Shown in pieces: positions 36,521 through 44,611 of a stretch of 64,000 bases of DNA. This DNA comes from Streptosporangiales bacterium (GTDB lineage Bacteria; Actinomycetota; Actinomycetes; Streptosporangiales; WHST01). Position numbers and translations under genes: made by a program. Under the pieces are notes generated by a model that saw nothing but the letters and a program-made list of their open reading frames with translations, was not told the origin of the DNA and made no database searches. Location of the stretch: positions 1 through 64,000 of the forward strand of contig WHST01000015.1 in NCBI GenBank assembly GCA_009379955.1. The letters run 5' to 3'. The stretch's first letter is position 1, and the number at the start of each line of letters is the position of its first letter.

Positions 36521-39500
36521 CTAACCGAACGCGACGGCGCCCGCGCCGAGAAGCTGCTTGAGGTCGCCCATCAGGGCCGACGACGGCGTGACGCGGAACC
36601 TGTCGTCGAGCCTCACCACGCGCGCGCCGTTGCCGCCGGACAGGTGGAGCCGCACCTCGGTGACACCCGGGTGCGTGCCGAGCACGTCCTTGAGCTTGTC
36701 GACGACGGGCGGCGTGCACCTGGCGACCGGGAGGGAGAGGACCACCGGGCCGACCTGGCGCTCGCCGAGGTCGGGGACGGTGACGTCCTGCGCGCGCAGC
36801 CGCGGCGCGTCCTCGCGCTTGTCGAGACGGCCCTTGACCACGATGACGGCGTCCTCGGAGAGCAGGGTGCCGTACTGCTGGTAGGTCTGCGGGAAGAACA
36901 GCACCTCGAGCGTGCCTTCGAGGTCCTCGAGCTGCGCGACCGCCCACGGGGCGCCCTGCTTGGTGATCCGGCGCGTGAGTCCCGTGACCAGGCCGGCGCA
37001 GGTGAGCATCACGCCGTTCTGGTGCTCGCCGTCGACGAGGGACGCGAGCGAGCAGTCGGCGATCGACGCGAGCACGTGCTCGAGGCCGAGCAGCGGGTGG
37101 TCGGAGACGTAGAGGCCGAGCATCTCGCGCTCGTACGCGAGCAGCGCGGCCTTGTCCCACTCCTCCGGCACGATGGTGATGTCGAGGCTGAAGTCGACGG
37201 CCTCGTCGTCGCCCCCGCCGAAGCCGAACAGGGAGTCCTGCCCGATCGCCTCGTTGCGCTTGACCTCGACGACGGCGTCGATCGCGCGCTCGTGCATCTC
37301 CAGCAGCCCGCGCCTGGTATGCCCGAGCGAGTCGAAGCCGCCCGCCTTGATCAGCGACTCGATGACCCTCTTGTTGCAGACCTGGACAGGCACCTTGCGC
37401 AGGAAGTCCTGGAAGCTCTCGAACGCGCCCTGTGCCTGCCGCGCCTTGACGATCTCGGCGACGACGTTGCGGCCGACGTTGCGGATCGCGGCGAGGCCGA
37501 ACCTGATGTCGGTGCCCCGGGGGGTGAAGTCGGCGTCGGACTCGTTGACGTCGGGCGGCAGCACCTTGACGCCCATGCGGCGGCACTCGTGCAGGTAGAT
37601 GGCCGCCTTGTCCTTGTCGTCCTTGACGCTGGTGAGCAGCGCGGACATGTACTCGGACGGGTAGTTGGCCTTGAGGTGCGCGGTCCAGTAGGAGACGAGG
37701 CCGTACGCGGCCGAGTGCGCCTTGTTGAAGGCGTAGTCGGAGAACGGGACGAGGATGTCCCACAGCGTGGTGATCGCGTGGTCGCTGTAGCCCTTGTCGC
37801 GCATGCCCTGCGCGAACGGCTCGAACTCCTTGTCGAGGATCTCCTTCTTCTTCTTGCCCATCGCGCGGCGGAGCAGGTCAGCGGCACCGAGCGAGTAGCC
37901 GGCGACCTTCTGCGCGATCGCGATGACCTGCTCCTGGTAGACGATCAGGCCGAACGTCTCGTCGAGGATCTCGGCGAGCGGCTCCTCCAGCTCCTTGTGG
38001 ATCGGGATGATCGGCTTGCGCGCGTTCTTGCGGTCGGCGTACTCGTTGTGCGAGTTCGCGCCCATCGGGCCGGGCCGGTAGAGGGCGCCGACGGCGGAGA
38101 TGTCCTCGAAGCTCGTCGGCCGCATCGAGCGCAGCAAGGACCGCATCGGCCCGCCGTCGAGCTGGAACACCCCGAGCGTGTCGCCGCGGGACAGCAGCTC
38201 GAACGTCGCCTCGTCGACGAGCGGCAGCTCCTCCAGGAGGAGGGTCTCGCCACGGTTGGTCTCGACGTGCTTGAGGCAGTCGTCGAGCACGGTGAGGTTG
38301 CGCAGCCCGAGGAAGTCCATCTTCAGCAGGCCGAGGTTCTCGCACGCGCCCATGTCGAACTGGGTGATGATCGCGCCGTCCTGCTCGCGACGCTGGATCG
38401 GGATGACGTCGATCAGCGGCTCGCCGGACAGGATCACGCCGGCGGCATGGACGCCCCACTGCCGCTTCAGGCCCTCGAGGCCGCGGGCGGTGTCGACGAC
38501 GCGGCGTACCTCGGCCTCGGCCTCGTAGAGCTGCCGGAACTCCTGAGCCTCGGCGTGGCGTGGGTGCTTCTCGTCGAAGATGCCCGAGAGCGGGATGTCC
38601 TTGCCCATCACCGTCGGCGGCATCGCCTTGGTGACCCGGTCACCCATCGAGAACGGGTAGCCGAGGACGCGCGAGGAGTCCTTGATCGCCTGCTTGGCCT
38701 TGATGGTGCCGTAGGTGATGATCTGCGAGACGCGGTCCTCGCCGTACTTCTCCGTGGCGTACCTGATCATGTCGCCGCGCCGACGCTCGTCGAAGTCGAG
38801 GTCGATGTCGGGCATCGAGACGCGGTCGGGGTTGAGGAAGCGTTCGAACAGCAGCCCGTGTGCCATCGGGTCGAGCGCGGTGATGCCCAGGGCCCAGGAG
38901 ATCACCGCGCCGGCCGCGGACCCGCGCCCCGGGCCGACCCGGATGTCGTTCTCCTTGGCGTGCCTGATCAGGTCGGCGACGACGAGGAAGTAGCCGGGGT
39001 AGCCCATCTGGATGATGACGCCGAGCTCGTACTCGGCCTGTGCCTCGTACTTGTCGGGGATGCCGTCGGGGAAGAGCCCGGCCAGACCGCGCCAGACCTC
39101 CTTGCGCAGCCAGGACGCCTCGGTCTCGCCCTCGGGCACCGGCGAGCGCGGCTGCAGGTCGCGGTGCGCGAACGCGGAGTCGTAGCCACCGCAGCGCTCG
39201 GCGATCAGCAGCGTGTTGTCGCACGCCTCGGGGATCTCCCGCCACAGCCGGCGCATCTCCTCGGGCGACTTGAGATAGAAGTCGTCGGCGTCGAGCTTGA
39301 ACCGCTTCGGGTCGGCGAGGGTCTTGCCCGACTGCACGCACAGCAGCGCCTCGTGCGCCTTGGCGTCCTCCTTATGCGTGTAGTGCAGGTCGTTGGTCGC
39401 GACGAACGGCATGCCGAGGTCGCGGGCGAGCCTGATGAGGTCCTTCTGGACGCGCTGCTCGATGCCGAGGCCGTGGTCCATCAGCTCACAGAAGAACGAG

Positions 39501-40060
39501 TCGGTCCCGAAGATCTCGCGGAACTCGCCGGCGGAGCGCTTCGCGCCCTCGTAGTTGCCCTGCCGCAGGAGGGTCTGGATCTCGCCGCTCGGGCAGCCGG
39601 TCGTCGCGATGAGCCCCTTGCCGTACCGGCCGAGCAGCTCCTTGTCCATGCGGGGCTTGTAGTAGAAGCCCTCCAGGCTCGCGAGCGAGGACAGCTTGAA
39701 CAGGTTGTGCAGGCCGTCGAGGGTCTCCGCGAGCATGGTCAGGTGCGTGTACGCACCGCCGCCGGAGACGTCGTCCTCGCCGCCCTCGGCCCAGCGGACC
39801 CTGGTGCGCTCGAACCGGCTGCCGGGCGCGAGGTAGGCCTCGGTGCCGACGATCGGCTTGACCCCGGCATTGGTGGCCTGGTGGAAGAAGTCGTAGGCAC
39901 CGAACAGGTTGCCGTGGTCGGTCATCGCCAGCGCCGGCATGCCCATACGGGCGGTCTCGGCGAACAGGTCGGGAAGCCGCGCCGCGCCGTCGAGCATGGA
40001 GTACTCGGTGTGCACGTGCAGGTGGACGAAGGACTCATCGGCTGTGGCCGACCCGCTCAA
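36521..40060 (-). CDS. dnaE: DNA polymerase III alpha subunit
   Basis: Main replicative polymerase, 1179 residues from the chosen start. The N-terminal PHP domain begins FVHLHVHTEYSMLDGAARLP and keeps MTDHGNL; the polymerase core has VGPGRGSAAGAVISWALGI and the catalytic Asp pair in MPDIDLDFDERRRGD, followed by the third catalytic Asp region. The tail holds helix-hairpin-helix and OB-fold parts (GLVTGLTRRITKQG). TTG 40060 is favoured because GAGGAGG lies eight bases upstream; GTG 40081 gives seven more residues and has no Shine-Dalgarno. Single uninterrupted frame. Confidence 0.96.
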   Translation of the reverse strand: MSGSATADESFVHLHVHTEYSMLDGAARLPDLFAETARMGMPALAMTDHGNLFGAYDFFHQATNAGVKPIVGTEAYLAPGSRFERTRVRWAEGGEDDVSGGGAYTHLTMLAETLDGLHNLFKLSSLASLEGFYYKPRMDKELLGRYGKGLIATTGCPSGEIQTLLRQGNYEGAKRSAGEFREIFGTDSFFCELMDHGLGIEQRVQKDLIRLARDLGMPFVATNDLHYTHKEDAKAHEALLCVQSGKTLADPKRFKLDADDFYLKSPEEMRRLWREIPEACDNTLLIAERCGGYDSAFAHRDLQPRSPVPEGETEASWLRKEVWRGLAGLFPDGIPDKYEAQAEYELGVIIQMGYPGYFLVVADLIRHAKENDIRVGPGRGSAAGAVISWALGITALDPMAHGLLFERFLNPDRVSMPDIDLDFDERRRGDMIRYATEKYGEDRVSQIITYGTIKAKQAIKDSSRVLGYPFSMGDRVTKAMPPTVMGKDIPLSGIFDEKHPRHAEAQEFRQLYEAEAEVRRVVDTARGLEGLKRQWGVHAAGVILSGEPLIDVIPIQRREQDGAIITQFDMGACENLGLLKMDFLGLRNLTVLDDCLKHVETNRGETLLLEELPLVDEATFELLSRGDTLGVFQLDGGPMRSLLRSMRPTSFEDISAVGALYRPGPMGANSHNEYADRKNARKPIIPIHKELEEPLAEILDETFGLIVYQEQVIAIAQKVAGYSLGAADLLRRAMGKKKKEILDKEFEPFAQGMRDKGYSDHAITTLWDILVPFSDYAFNKAHSAAYGLVSYWTAHLKANYPSEYMSALLTSVKDDKDKAAIYLHECRRMGVKVLPPDVNESDADFTPRGTDIRFGLAAIRNVGRNVVAEIVKARQAQGAFESFQDFLRKVPVQVCNKRVIESLIKAGGFDSLGHTRRGLLEMHERAIDAVVEVKRNEAIGQDSLFGFGGGDDEAVDFSLDITIVPEEWDKAALLAYEREMLGLYVSDHPLLGLEHVLASIADCSLASLVDGEHQNGVMLTCAGLVTGLTRRITKQGAPWAVAQLEDLEGTLEVLFFPQTYQQYGTLLSEDAVIVVKGRLDKREDAPRLRAQDVTVPDLGERQVGPVVLSLPVARCTPPVVDKLKDVLGTHPGVTEVRLHLSGGNGARVVRLDDRFRVTPSSALMGDLKQLLGAGAVAFG

Positions 40061-40367
40061 GCCCGGAACCTCCTCGGTCACGTCACGCCGACACCAACGC
40101 GGCGAGGCTCCCGGGGAAGGAGGCCGTGCGGACGTCCACCGGTCACCGCGGCCGGGCCGCGCCTCGGGACTCGAGGCGCGGAACGCTCCGCGAAGGGCGC
40201 CGGTCGACGCCGCAGGAGCGGGTCGTACTCGCCGTGGTCGAGCTTAGTCCGCGCCGCCGACAGCACCGCGGAAGACCCGCCGCTCCCCCCGACGTCGGTA
40301 CGCGGACGAGGAGACTCCCGGCGTGCCGGACGCGCGGACCGGGGCGGGACGGCCACCATGGGGTCCC
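40061..40367. other. Divergent intergenic region between dnaE and a membrane-protein gene
   Basis: About 300 bp without a supportable gene. On the dnaE side, a TAAGCT -10-like hexamer (40246 to 40241 on the minus strand) is the only promoter-like signal, without a good -35. No RNA gene or strong hairpin seen. Confidence 0.4.
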
Positions 40368-40856: not shown

Positions 40857-40915
40857 CCCGCTGACCGGTTGGCCCGTGACGGGCGCCGACTCGTCACGGT
40901 GAACCGGTCAGCGGG
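40857..40915. terminator. Bidirectional terminator-like nested hairpin
   Basis: CCCGCTGACCGGTT (40857-40870) pairs perfectly with AACCGGTCAGCGGG (40902-40915). An inner stem CCGTGACG/CGTCACGG lies within. It fills the gap between two convergent genes; its right arm includes the stop codon of the leftward fusion gene. No T-run. Confidence 0.7.
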
Positions 40916-41897
40916 AGTTCGTGGTGGTGCAGGGGTTGCTGTCGGAACGCTGCTCGTCGTCGGCGGCGTCGAGGCCGGCGAGGATCACCGCCTCCACGAC
41001 GAGGGCGAGCCGTTCGGCGCCGAGGCGTGGGGCCCGGCGCGCCATGGCCTCCACGATCGCACGCTCCCTCGCGGGGTCCCTGCCGGCGCGCCCGCCGACG
41101 GGCTTGATCTGCTGGATGGTCGCCGCGATGCGGGCACGCTGCTCGAGCAGGGTGGCGAGGGCGGCGTCGGCCCGGTCGATGGCGTCGCGCCCGTCGGCGA
41201 GGTTCTGCGGCACCTCGTCGCGCAGCAGCGGAGCGAGCACGGTCGCCTGCTCCGTGACCCTCGCGGTGACGGCCGCGTCGGCACCCTCACCGAGCAGCAG
41301 GCCGTCGGCACCGGCGGCGACGGCCGCGGGGACGAGGTCGGGGTCGCTACTGACGTCGACGACCACGGGCATCTCCGTCCGCGTACGCGTGTCGCGGACG
41401 AGCCTGAGGTCGACGACGAGGTGGTCGACGGTGTTGCTCCGGCTGCCGCCCTCGCACAACATGACGTCGGCGTTGCCCTCGGCCGTGCAGTACTCCGCCG
41501 AGGCGAGCCACTCCGCCGGGGTGGCGTACGTGCCCCGCTGGAGCAGCACCGGCAGCCGCAGCCGGCCCACCGCGCGGAGCAGCTGGAAGTCCTGCATCCA
41601 GTCGCCCCCCACCAGCACGCCGTCGGCGTGCGCGGCGATCGCCGGGAGGTCGGCGGCGGAGAACGGCTCGACGACCAGCGGACCGGACACGGTGGTGCGC
41701 ATCCGGCGCAGCTCCTCCACGGCGGGACGGCTGCCGTGGTGGCGTCGCAGGCTGGTGACGGTGATGGCGGCTCCGCTGCCCGCTCCGGCGAGCACGGGCA
41801 CGGCGCCGGCTCCGATCCGGGCGCTGCCGATCCGCACCTCGCGGGTCTGTGCCTGTCGGGTCTCTGCCTGCCGCTGGGGCTCTGCCTGCTGGCTCAC
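40908..41897 (-). CDS. Degenerate DAHP-synthase-like domain fused to AroQ chorismate mutase
   Basis: A 329-residue protein. Residues about 30-225 follow the type I DAHP-synthase/KDO8P-synthase barrel (GGDWMQDFQLL at 98, VLLQRGTYATPAEW, AEGNADVMLCEGGSRSNT), but catalytic landmarks are changed: GPC becomes GAG, the KPRTSP loop is missing, the Lys before RG is Gln, CERGIR is CEGGSR, and the metal His of DPSH is absent (VDVSSDP). Residues 236-312 are an AroQ helix bundle with R254, K265 and the RxxxRE pair in RDPARERA, so mutase activity is plausible. GTG 41897 has GGAGAGG seven bases upstream. The barrel may be regulatory. Confidence 0.7.
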   Translation of the reverse strand: MSQQAEPQRQAETRQAQTREVRIGSARIGAGAVPVLAGAGSGAAITVTSLRRHHGSRPAVEELRRMRTTVSGPLVVEPFSAADLPAIAAHADGVLVGGDWMQDFQLLRAVGRLRLPVLLQRGTYATPAEWLASAEYCTAEGNADVMLCEGGSRSNTVDHLVVDLRLVRDTRTRTEMPVVVDVSSDPDLVPAAVAAGADGLLLGEGADAAVTARVTEQATVLAPLLRDEVPQNLADGRDAIDRADAALATLLEQRARIAATIQQIKPVGGRAGRDPARERAIVEAMARRAPRLGAERLALVVEAVILAGLDAADDEQRSDSNPCTTTNSR

Positions 41898-41944
41898 GGG
41901 GGTCCCTCTCCTCACGGTCGGGGCCGGTTCCCATGCCAGACGTC

Positions 41945-42015
41945 CACCCGAAAACCGGCTCTGTTCATGACGAGAGCCAGAGACGTCGTCGCCTCTGGCT
42001 CGGCCGATTCGGGTG
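41945..42015 (-). promoter_or_regulatory. Nested hairpins in the leader of the chorismate-mutase gene
   Basis: Inner stem GAGCCAGAG (41974-41982) pairs with CTCTGGCTC (41993-42001). It sits inside an outer stem CACCCGAA (41945-41952)/TTCGGGTG (42008-42015). On the minus strand these lie between a possible leader peptide and GTG 41897. Position and symmetry suggest attenuation or mRNA stability control; not demonstrated. Confidence 0.5.
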
Positions 42016-42034
42016 CGCGCTGGTCAGGGTGTGC

Positions 42035-42091
42035 TCACGCTGCCGCGCCGGCCCGAACCGGCTCGGTAAACGTGCGATACATCGTGACCAT
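42035..42091 (-). CDS. Possible 18-residue leader peptide MVTMYRTFTEPVRAGAAA
   Basis: The frame begins six bases after a TACGCT -10-like hexamer (42103 to 42098 on the minus strand), as in leaderless transcripts, and carries one Tyr and one Phe codon near its start. It precedes the nested hairpins and the chorismate-mutase fusion. A single Tyr and Phe is weak evidence for attenuation. Confidence 0.3.
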   Translation of the reverse strand: MVTMYRTFTEPVRAGAAA

Positions 42092-42160: not shown

Positions 42161-43090
42161 TCAGGACTCCTCCGCGACGACGTCGAGAGCGTGCCGGAGG
42201 TCGTCGGGATACCCGGTCTCGTACGCGACCGGCCGCCCGGTGCCCGGGTGCTCGAATCCCAGTCGTACGGCGTGCAGCCACTGCCGGGTGAGTCCGAGCC
42301 GTTCGGCGAGCACGGGGTCGGCGCCGTACATGTGGTCACCGACGCACGGGTGCTTGACGGCGGCCATGTGCACCCGGATCTGGTGGGTGCGCCCGGTCTC
42401 GAGCCTGACCTCGAGCAGGGTGGCGTAGCGGAACGCCTCGACCGTGTCGTAGTGCGTCACGCTCGGCTTGCCCGACGCCACGACCGCCCATTTGTACTCC
42501 TCCCGCGGATGCCGGTCGAGCGGGGCGTCGATCGTGCCGCGCAGCGGGTCGGGGTGCCCCTGTACGAGGGCGTGGTAGGTCTTGTCGACGGTGCGCTCCC
42601 GGAACGCGCGCTTGAGCGCCGCGTACGCGCGCTCCGACCTGGCGACGACCATGACCCCGCTCGTGCCGGCGTCGAGGCGGTGCACGATGCCCTGCCGCTC
42701 GGCCGCGCCGGCGAGGCTGAGGTGGTAGCCGGCCGCGGCGAGGCCGGCGACGACGGTGGGGCCGGTCCACCCGGGTGCCGCGTGGACCGCCACGCCGATC
42801 GGCTTGTCGAGCACGAGGATGTCGTCGTCGTCGTGCAGGACGCGCATGCCGGGGACCGGCTCGGGCACGACGCGTCGCGGTGCGGGGGGCGCGGGCAGGT
42901 CGACGTCGAGCCACTGGCCGCCCGTCACCCGGGTCGACTTGCTGGCCTCCTCGCCGTCGAGCAGCACCTGGCCCTCGCCGACGAGGCTCGCGGCGACCGT
43001 ACGGGAGAGACCGAACATCCGCGCCAGTGCCGCGTCGAGCCGCTCGCCGGTCAACCCCTCGGGCACCGGCAGGGTGCGGCGGTCACTCAC
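42161..43090 (-). CDS. RluA-family pseudouridine synthase (RluC/RluD type)
   Basis: A 309-residue rRNA-modifying enzyme. The N-terminal S4 domain reads [20 protein letters not shown]; the catalytic domain has [20 protein letters not shown], the catalytic Asp in [18 protein letters not shown], and the later [20 protein letters not shown] and [20 protein letters not shown]. Its position after lspA is conserved in many bacteria. GTG 43090 overlaps the lspA stop by eight bases. The exact uridine target cannot be read from the sequence. Confidence 0.93.
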
Positions 43091-43682
43091 GGCCGCCGTC
43101 ACCCCCGTCGGCGGCGGGTGTGGGCACCAGCTCCTTGTCGTTCGTCGCGCGGGTGCCGTCGACACCGATCCCGCGGAGCGCGACGACGACGGCGAGCACG
43201 CCGCCGCAGACGACGGCCGAGTCGGCGATGTTGAAGATGGGCCAGTACGGCAGCTGGATCCAGTCGACGACGTGACCGGTGAGCGGGCCCGGGGCCCGCA
43301 GCAACCGGTCGGTGAGGTTGCCGAGGGCGCCACCGAGGATCAGGCCGAACGCGATCGCCCAGCCGCGGCTGCGGAGCCGCGTGGCCGTCCGCACGATGAA
43401 GGCCACGACGGCGATCACGATCAGCGAGAGCACAATGGTGAGGCTGCCCGCGAGGCCGAATGCCGCGCCCGGGTTCCTGATCACGTTGAGCGTGAGTAGG
43501 CCGCCGAGCAGCTCGATGTCGCGGCGGCCCTCGAGCTCGGCGACGACGGTCACCTTGGTCGCGATGTCGAGGCCGAGCGCCACCGCGGCGATGACGGCGA
43601 GCAACACGAAACGGCGAGGGCGAGCAGGTGCGGTCCCGTTCTCCTCGGAGCGGGTCTCCTCGTCAGTCAGCTCGACCTCCAC
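43083..43682 (-). CDS. lspA: Lipoprotein signal peptidase
   Basis: Aspartic membrane protease of 199 residues that cleaves prolipoprotein signal peptides. Four spans are predicted. Family motifs are [23 protein letters not shown] with the first catalytic Asp, and [12 protein letters not shown] with the second. The first 25 residues are an acidic cytoplasmic extension ([16 protein letters not shown]). GTG 43682 is chosen by length; its Shine-Dalgarno is poor and it lies 17 bp after the TraR/DksA stop, so it may depend on coupling. Confidence 0.94.
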
Positions 43683-43699: not shown

Positions 43700-44494
43700 T
43701 TACCGGCGTTCCTCCCGTTGCTTGCACACGACGCACAGGGTCGCTCGCGGGAACACCCGCAGCCGTTCCTTGCCGATCGGCCCGCCACAACTCTCGCATA
43801 CCCCGTAGCTGCCCGCGTCGATGCGTTCGATCGCGCGCTCGTTCTGGGCGATGAGGTCGCGGGCGTTGTTGACCAGGGAGATCTCGTGCTCGCGCTCGGA
43901 CGCCTTGCTCCCCTGGTCGGCCTGGTCCTCGCCCCCGCCGTCGGTGCCGTCGCGCAACCGGTTGGCGAGGTCGGACTCCGCCTTCGTGACCTCCTCGAGC
44001 AACGACTCCAGCTCGGCGGTCAGCTTGCCCCTGATCGCGGCCAGCTCGTCGGCGGAGAACCCGGAGACACGGTCGGGACGCGGCTTCGCGGGCGCCTTCT
44101 TGACCGGCGCCTTCTTCGCCGCCGGAGCGGCCTTCTTCGCAGGCGCCTTCCTGACCGGTGCCCTCTTCGCCGCCGGAACCGCCTTCTTGGCCGCCGCCTT
44201 CTTCGCCGGTGCCCTCTTCGCCGCCGCCTTCTTGGCCACAGCCTTCTTCGCTGGCGCCTTCTTCTTCGTCGCCGGCGCCGCCTTCTTGGCCGCCACCTTC
44301 TTCGCGGGCGCCTTCCCGGCTGGTGCCTTCGGCGTCCCCGCGGCGATCTTGCGTGCCGCGGGCCTGGCCGATGTCCGCTTGGCAGACGTCGCCGTGGCGC
44401 CGCCCCCCGACGTCACGCCGGTCCTGCGACCGGCGCCTGCGGGCCGCTTCGCCGCCGGTGAGCTGTTTCTGGCCACTGCGGTCTCCTCTGCCAT
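43700..44494 (-). CDS. TraR/DksA zinc-finger protein with a long Lys/Ala-rich histone-H1-like N-terminus
   Basis: A 264-residue protein. Residues 1 to about 140 are a low-complexity basic tail of PAKKA and AAKK repeats, like histone H1 or the HupB tail. From [20 protein letters not shown] a coiled coil leads to [20 protein letters not shown] and a C4 zinc finger [25 protein letters not shown]. The core is the DksA/TraR fold, which reaches RNA polymerase through its secondary channel; the basic tail should add nucleic-acid affinity. ATG 44494 is taken; TTG 44512 is upstream. It heads the leftward run with lspA and the pseudouridine synthase. Confidence 0.85.
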
Positions 44495-44611
44495 GAGGCC
44501 GGACGACACCAATGATCATGCGCTGGCCGCATGGTAGGTGCCGGACCCACCTGCGGCAACGTACCGCGCCGCGGTGGCGACCGACGGCGCGCGCGAGCCG
44601 ACGCCAGCGAG

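Follow-up and report, generated by a model that had tools for sequence, protein, structure and literature searches.

Chorismate mutase catalyzes the first step of phenylalanine and tyrosine synthesis, and DAHP synthase is the first enzyme of the pathway. In the window, the whole stretch of 64,000 nucleotides of Streptosporangiales DNA that we analyzed, one gene joins a barrel resembling the latter enzyme to a mutase domain, and the barrel appears to lack the catalytic motifs of a synthase. What, if anything, does such a barrel do for the mutase? When a pseudoenzyme domain turns up in a metabolic pathway, it is usually as a single case. Here we consider it moderately probable that the fusion is the cell's chorismate mutase, with a selected pseudoenzyme barrel acting as scaffold or regulator and with expression set by a leader RNA.

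Architecture and predicted fold of the fusion protein

The gene runs on the minus strand from a GTG start at 41897 to the end of its stop codon at 40908, and an AG-rich stretch resembling a Shine-Dalgarno sequence lies upstream of the GTG. The gene and its parts are as follows:

40908..41897, minus strand: fusion gene for a DAHP-synthase-like putative pseudoenzyme barrel and an AroQ chorismate mutase, 329 aa (open reading frame, Pfam and orthologues)
41220..41840, minus strand: putative pseudo-DAHP-synthase barrel, about residues 20–226 (AlphaFold2 (AF2) model with DSSP, Foldseek against the PDB, Pfam)
41430..41672 (approximate span), minus strand: dead-site motifs VEPFS (76–80), WMQDF (100–104), QRG (120–122) and CEGGSR (148–153) (alignment, counts over 44 orthologues, strand positions)
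40935..41204, minus strand: AroQ chorismate mutase domain, about residues 232–321 (Pfam and residue counts over 70 family members)

Pfam placed DAHP_synth_1 at residues 55–200 (E 8e-19) and CM_2 at residues 237–294 (E 3e-10), both over the curated cut-off. The best NCBIfam matches were DAHP-synthase/CM models, at 102 bits and far under the 279-bit cut-off, and the nearest solved structures by sequence match were the AroQ-DAHP synthases of Geobacillus and Listeria. The layout of a bifunctional DAHP synthase-chorismate mutase is present, with both domains in one chain and the DAHP synthase first. The first-pass annotation had likened the N-terminal half to type I DAHP synthase, a likeness borne out by Pfam DAHP_synth_1, AF2 and Foldseek and now placed in type I-β.

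AF2 was given an alignment of eight rows, namely the fusion protein, a relative at 79% identity and six DAHP or KDO8P synthases. Structure prediction returned the DAHP-synthase (β/α)8 fold without helix α1, a result that partly restates homology because the alignment contained synthases. The N-terminal hairpin, all strands β1–β8 and a helix α8 running into the mutase were present in the predicted barrel, and DSSP showed the first two strands without an intervening helix. The pLDDT was about 90 over most of the barrel (block means over residues 21–220 mostly 81–96, with dips at 51–60 and 151–160), and the mutase helices were poorly predicted (pLDDT 55–70). The top PDB matches of the barrel model in Foldseek were the DAHP synthases 3pg8, 1vs1, 5j6f and 1vr6.

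Loss of the synthase site and conservation of a new pattern

Residues were counted over the 44 orthologues with an alignable barrel, aligned to four canonical type I-β synthases. The metal ligands Cys, His and Glu were kept in none of the 44 and are gone from the window protein too, and the equivalents of E. coli Arg92, Lys97, Arg165, Lys186 and Arg234 were missing in 44/44. Arg99, which belongs to the poorly aligned KPRTS loop, aligned with Arg in two of the 44 and is not kept in the window protein. The first-pass annotation had listed the metal Cys, the KPRTSP loop, the Arg of CERG and the metal His as lost; these losses hold in the window protein and, save for Arg99, are common to all 44 alignable orthologues. 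Two further losses lie beyond that list, as the Arg of GARN (the Arg165 equivalent) is Asp and the catalytic Lys of LKRG (the Lys186 equivalent) is Gln in the window protein. The catalytic roles given to these residues are those that we take to be established for DAHP synthases.

Other positions in the barrel were kept or newly fixed. The Glu of TEV (Glu77), the Arg after the former Lys (Arg121) and the Cys-Glu of LCERG occurred in 44/44, and the Arg of GIR in 41/44. Trp100 stood in place of the Asn of GARN in all 44, and Gln in place of the Lys in 37. The sites VEPFS, WMQDF, QRG and CEGGSR lie at the C-terminal ends of strands β3–β6. Because the kept and the newly conserved residues are common to the 44 orthologues, the dead site reads as a conserved new pattern (WMQDF, QRG, CEsGsR) and not as random decay, and its conservation over genera is far past chance.

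Judged from inspection of its residues, the DAHP synthase half is predicted to be inactive. That the protein is still a DAHP synthase with an altered active site is scarcely credible: the retained Glu of TEV, Arg of LKRG, CE and second Arg of CERGIR would fit such an enzyme, but the metal ligands and the equivalents named above are lost in 44/44, with Arg at position 99 in two, and canonical DAHP synthases of types I and II are already encoded in the genome. In another reading, the barrel has taken up a new function, ligand binding or catalysis, that is not aimed at the mutase. Conservation is strong at the C-terminal ends of strands β2–β6, the mouth of the old active site, and the conserved Trp100, Asp103 and Gln120 are residues absent from DAHP synthases. 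We nevertheless find this reading very improbable, as the metal and phosphate ligands have all gone, Pfam, NCBIfam and Foldseek gave no match to another enzyme family, and the domain can be deleted with the mutase staying, as described below.

Distribution, erosion and selection

In a sample of 299 genomes of the order, about 100 carry the fusion, called as a single-span match of at least roughly 225 residues at no less than 47% identity and counted by hand. In a sample of 395 genomes from the class, the gene was found only in three families, the window's own (f1), f3 and f21. Amycolatopsis methanolica reportedly has a Phe-repressed mutase, CMII; an identification of the gene with CMII was dropped in view of this distribution. 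The following genes flank the fusion:

42161..43300, minus strand (3′ end of rluD at 42161, 5′ end approximate): upstream neighbour, an rluD-like pseudouridine synthase, followed by lspA-like and dksA/traR-like genes; gene order conserved in several families
36521..40081, minus strand: downstream neighbour dnaE, which adjoins the mutase gene in most relatives, fused or alone

The rluD-lspA-dksA block also adjoins the gene in several families, again with both fused and lone mutases. Separately, the TraR/DksA-type protein at window positions 43700–44512 (minus strand) has a long N-terminal tail, rich in Lys, Ala and Pro (KAPAKKA), that is reminiscent of the tails of histone H1.

The state of the barrel varies among these loci. 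By our own classification of 69 genes, with the short contig fragment L115 left out, the dead site is intact in 34, the barrel is partial in 11 (family f21) and absent in 12, and the rest are eroded. A full pseudo-barrel is found in f1, in much of f3 and in the f21 member G530, and the fusion is therefore probably ancestral to all three families. Eroded barrels occur in genera g8, g3, g15 and g18 and the mutase alone in g20 and g4, and each of g3, g8, g15, g18 and g45 holds more than one barrel state. Within g45, a precise in-frame deletion removes the barrel from G251 and G201 as compared with G204 and G195, and spares the leader, the ribosome site, the first codons, the last barrel helix and the mutase. 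Since several lineages have eroded, shrunk or deleted the barrel yet keep the mutase, persistence of the mutase does not depend on the barrel there, which counts against an obligatory role.

Selection was gauged with simple Nei-Gojobori estimates of dN/dS on close pairs. For 12 pairs with an intact dead site, dN/dS was 0.09–0.54 in the barrel (median 0.26) and 0.04–0.28 in the mutase (median 0.20); for nine pairs with an eroded barrel, it was 0.27–0.49 in the barrel (median 0.33), with a mutase median of 0.20. The intact barrel is thus under purifying selection, with a constraint nearly that of the mutase (medians 0.26 versus 0.20).

These data bear on the main rival explanation, that of a vestigial barrel, a dead enzyme retained only because it is in frame and folds, slowly eroding and with no specific effect on the mutase. 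We hold this to be somewhat unlikely. Erosion has run in parallel, with a partial barrel in f21 against the full one of its relative G530 and eroded ones in g8, g3, g15 and g18; the mutase stands alone in g20 and g4, two g45 genomes carry the clean deletion, and all eroded or barrel-less lineages tested also have a second, AroH mutase. Against a mere vestige stand the dN/dS of the intact barrel, near that of the mutase, and the new motif set, which is common across genera and to G530, though a folding constraint could explain part of both. The proposal in the first-pass annotation of a pseudoenzyme joined to an AroQ mutase agrees with the predicted DAHP-synthase fold, the conserved dead site and the purifying selection.

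The mutase domain and other mutases in the genomes

The AroQ domain had been credited with the Arg-Lys-Arg-Glu set, and the set is indeed present: the equivalents of Arg11, Arg28, Lys39, Asp48, Arg51 and Glu52 are kept in 70/70 family members. The credit does not extend to the equivalents of Ser84 and Gln88, which are Gly and Ala in the window protein; over the family, the former is Gly and the latter Ala or Ser in 70/70, and the helix 3 pair of the AroQ-α type is absent. The position after the Gln88 equivalent is Glu in 64 of the 70 and Gln in three (67/70 together). As to the marks of AroQ-δ, position 39 is Lys, not Arg, in 70/70, and the C-terminus reads GLxxAE with no Arg-Gly dyad. From these residues the AroQ domain is apparently competent, and its activity may be low, as Ser84 and Gln88 are absent in all members; in E. 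coli, the change Gln88Ala costs about 2×10^4 in mutase activity (PMC4281200). In a separate observation, the f21 mutases (L075–L083, L086–L088) end in a conserved PVWR/AVWR tail that is absent in the other families and is possibly a docking tail.

In the window's own draft genome, the profile search with PF01817 matched only the fusion gene, and neither the AroH family PF07736 nor an MtCM query gave a match; prephenate dehydratase is present. AroH was absent from all three genomes of the window's genus (f1; drafts, 97%, 100% and 77% complete), and an AroH-class mutase was found in all 23 other genomes tested (f2, f3 and f21). The MtCM query detected no AroQ-δ gene in these genomes, and its matches in f21 proved to be chance matches to ClpB. 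CM_2 searches alone had given the impression that some relatives have no chorismate mutase at all, which the AroH matches ruled out; with an AroH mutase present, these relatives were able to lose the AroQ gene altogether. Among matches that pass the first filter of the search in these draft genomes, the fusion is the only detectable mutase of the window's genus, whether AroQ, AroH or AroQ-δ-like, and the data suggest that it carries the whole branch there.

The own genome also holds a second type II DAHP-synthase-like frame (G000:C48:39706-40869; L044, L045; 427 aa). It matches profile positions 3–166 and 228–433, with 60 bases between the two matches and about 60 profile positions unmatched, and is possibly another altered synthase.

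The mutase might be weak alone and work only when complexed with a type II DAHP synthase, as MtCM does, the barrel being incidental to docking or part of it. MtCM is also without Ser84 and Gln88, here absent in 70/70, and needs its DAHP synthase (PMC4281200, PMC7762937), and type II DAHP synthase genes occur in the own genome. We judge this arrangement improbable, however: the equivalents of Lys39 and Asp48 are kept, unlike in MtCM, the Arg-Gly dyad that defines AroQ-δ is absent, and the Glu or Gln found one position on in 67/70 could replace Gln88.

A leader RNA upstream of the gene

Between the fusion gene and its rluD-like neighbour lie the elements of a leader:

42035..42091, minus strand: leader peptide open reading frame MVTMYRTFTEPVRAGAAA, with a UUU Phe codon at 42070–42068 (homologous leaders compared)
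42003..42062, minus strand: leader helix 1, GCCGGTTCGGG (42062–42052) paired with CCCGAATCGGC (42013–42003) (covariation count; fold)
41974..42001, minus strand: terminator-like hairpin GAGCCAGAGGCGACGACGTCTCTGGCTC (comparison with relatives, covariation, fold)

Over 62 loci, a leader made of a short Tyr/Phe open reading frame, a helix and a terminator-like hairpin precedes nearly every copy of the gene, mutase fused or alone. The peptide typically has the form M..RYFAFTEPAPG. The Phe codon of its conserved core is UUU in 62/62 leaders, as against 10 of the 133 Phe codons in the genes themselves; most of the 62 leaders have more Phe or Tyr codons, and some have a single aromatic codon. Comparison of 26 sequences showed the leader helices to be 96.6% paired, with seven doubly changed pairs versus 2.3 in shuffles, and sliding the helix partner destroyed this covariation signal. 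The window leader folds with a z of -3.9. The terminator stem covaries as well, and helix 1 does not overlap it. In most relatives the hairpin reads GGCAGAGAC..GTCTCTGCC, with a run of U after it. In the leader region (window 41897–42091, minus strand), another inverted repeat, GCCGG..CCGGC, lies on either side of the stretch ahead of the ribosome-binding site.

We propose the leader as an attenuator, and it stays a proposal because the U run is missing behind the window hairpin and we could not establish an antiterminator that is mutually exclusive with it. The leader resembles pheL-type transcription attenuators in its short peptide with Phe/Tyr codons, its hairpin and, in most relatives, its U run, and differs from them in having only one invariant Phe codon (UUU). 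It had no match in Rfam. No RNA elements for Phe or Tyr were reported from Actinobacteria in a survey of 2005 (PMC1262725).

Discussion

Taken with the barrel and mutase data, we favor a role of the barrel as scaffold or regulator of the mutase, in a scheme for which we infer chorismate mutase activity, assembly, ligand, regulation and attenuation mechanism. The C-terminal AroQ domain would convert chorismate to prephenate. The barrel would have lost every tested PEP-phosphate and metal ligand, together with helix α1, before the families diverged, and would make no DAHP; in lineages with an intact barrel, it would be a selected pseudoenzyme domain. Most likely, it joins dimers of the mutase into a larger assembly, and the mouth of its old active site, altered and conserved, most likely binds a ligand or partner and thereby tunes the mutase. 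Expression would probably be set by the leader RNA, through coupling of translation of the short Tyr/Phe peptide to the intrinsic-terminator-like hairpin. As a tentative possibility, the dead site may, after remodeling, serve as an allosteric sensor (of Phe, Tyr or a DAHP-synthase partner, for instance) that controls the mutase, in the direction opposite to that of the known fusions and in a genus with no other detectable chorismate mutase.

Among known systems, AroA(Q) of Porphyromonas gingivalis (PgiDAH7PS-CM) likewise carries a type I-β barrel and, C-terminal to it, an AroQ mutase on a single chain. Its barrel improves the Km of the mutase about tenfold, since cutting the mutase from the barrel takes the Km for chorismate from 19 to 207 μM (PMC12202928), which is the closest experimental parallel to the role that we favor. 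Both halves are active there, whereas the window barrel is without the synthase ligands and helix α1. The AroQ-DAHP synthases of Bacillus, Listeria and Geobacillus (PDB 3nvt, 5j6f) give the best sequence matches for both window domains but have the reversed domain order and an active synthase, and their mutase domain keeps the Gln88 equivalent (GLELQE, versus GLxLAE in the window family). MtCM (Rv0948c), of the AroQ-δ class, is actinobacterial and also without the Ser84 and Gln88 equivalents; unlike the fusion, it has no barrel, Arg46 for Lys39 and a C-terminal Arg-Gly dyad. A search of the open-access literature turned up no description of a chorismate mutase joined to a dead DAHP synthase.

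One gene at a conserved chromosomal position thus offers a dead domain in intact, eroded, shrunken and cleanly deleted form, some of these within one genus. Because versions from intact to deleted exist at one position, natural variants can reveal what a dead domain contributes to an enzyme that can be measured. The choice between vestige and role is directly testable through the natural barrel-less relatives, which keep the mutase and the Phe/Tyr-coded leader RNA. For these soil actinobacteria, the locus points to a leader RNA recorded neither by Rfam nor by the survey of Actinobacteria from 2005 (PMC1262725), and to an alternative actinobacterial control of the Phe/Tyr branch point, beside the complex of AroQ-δ with type II DAHP synthase.
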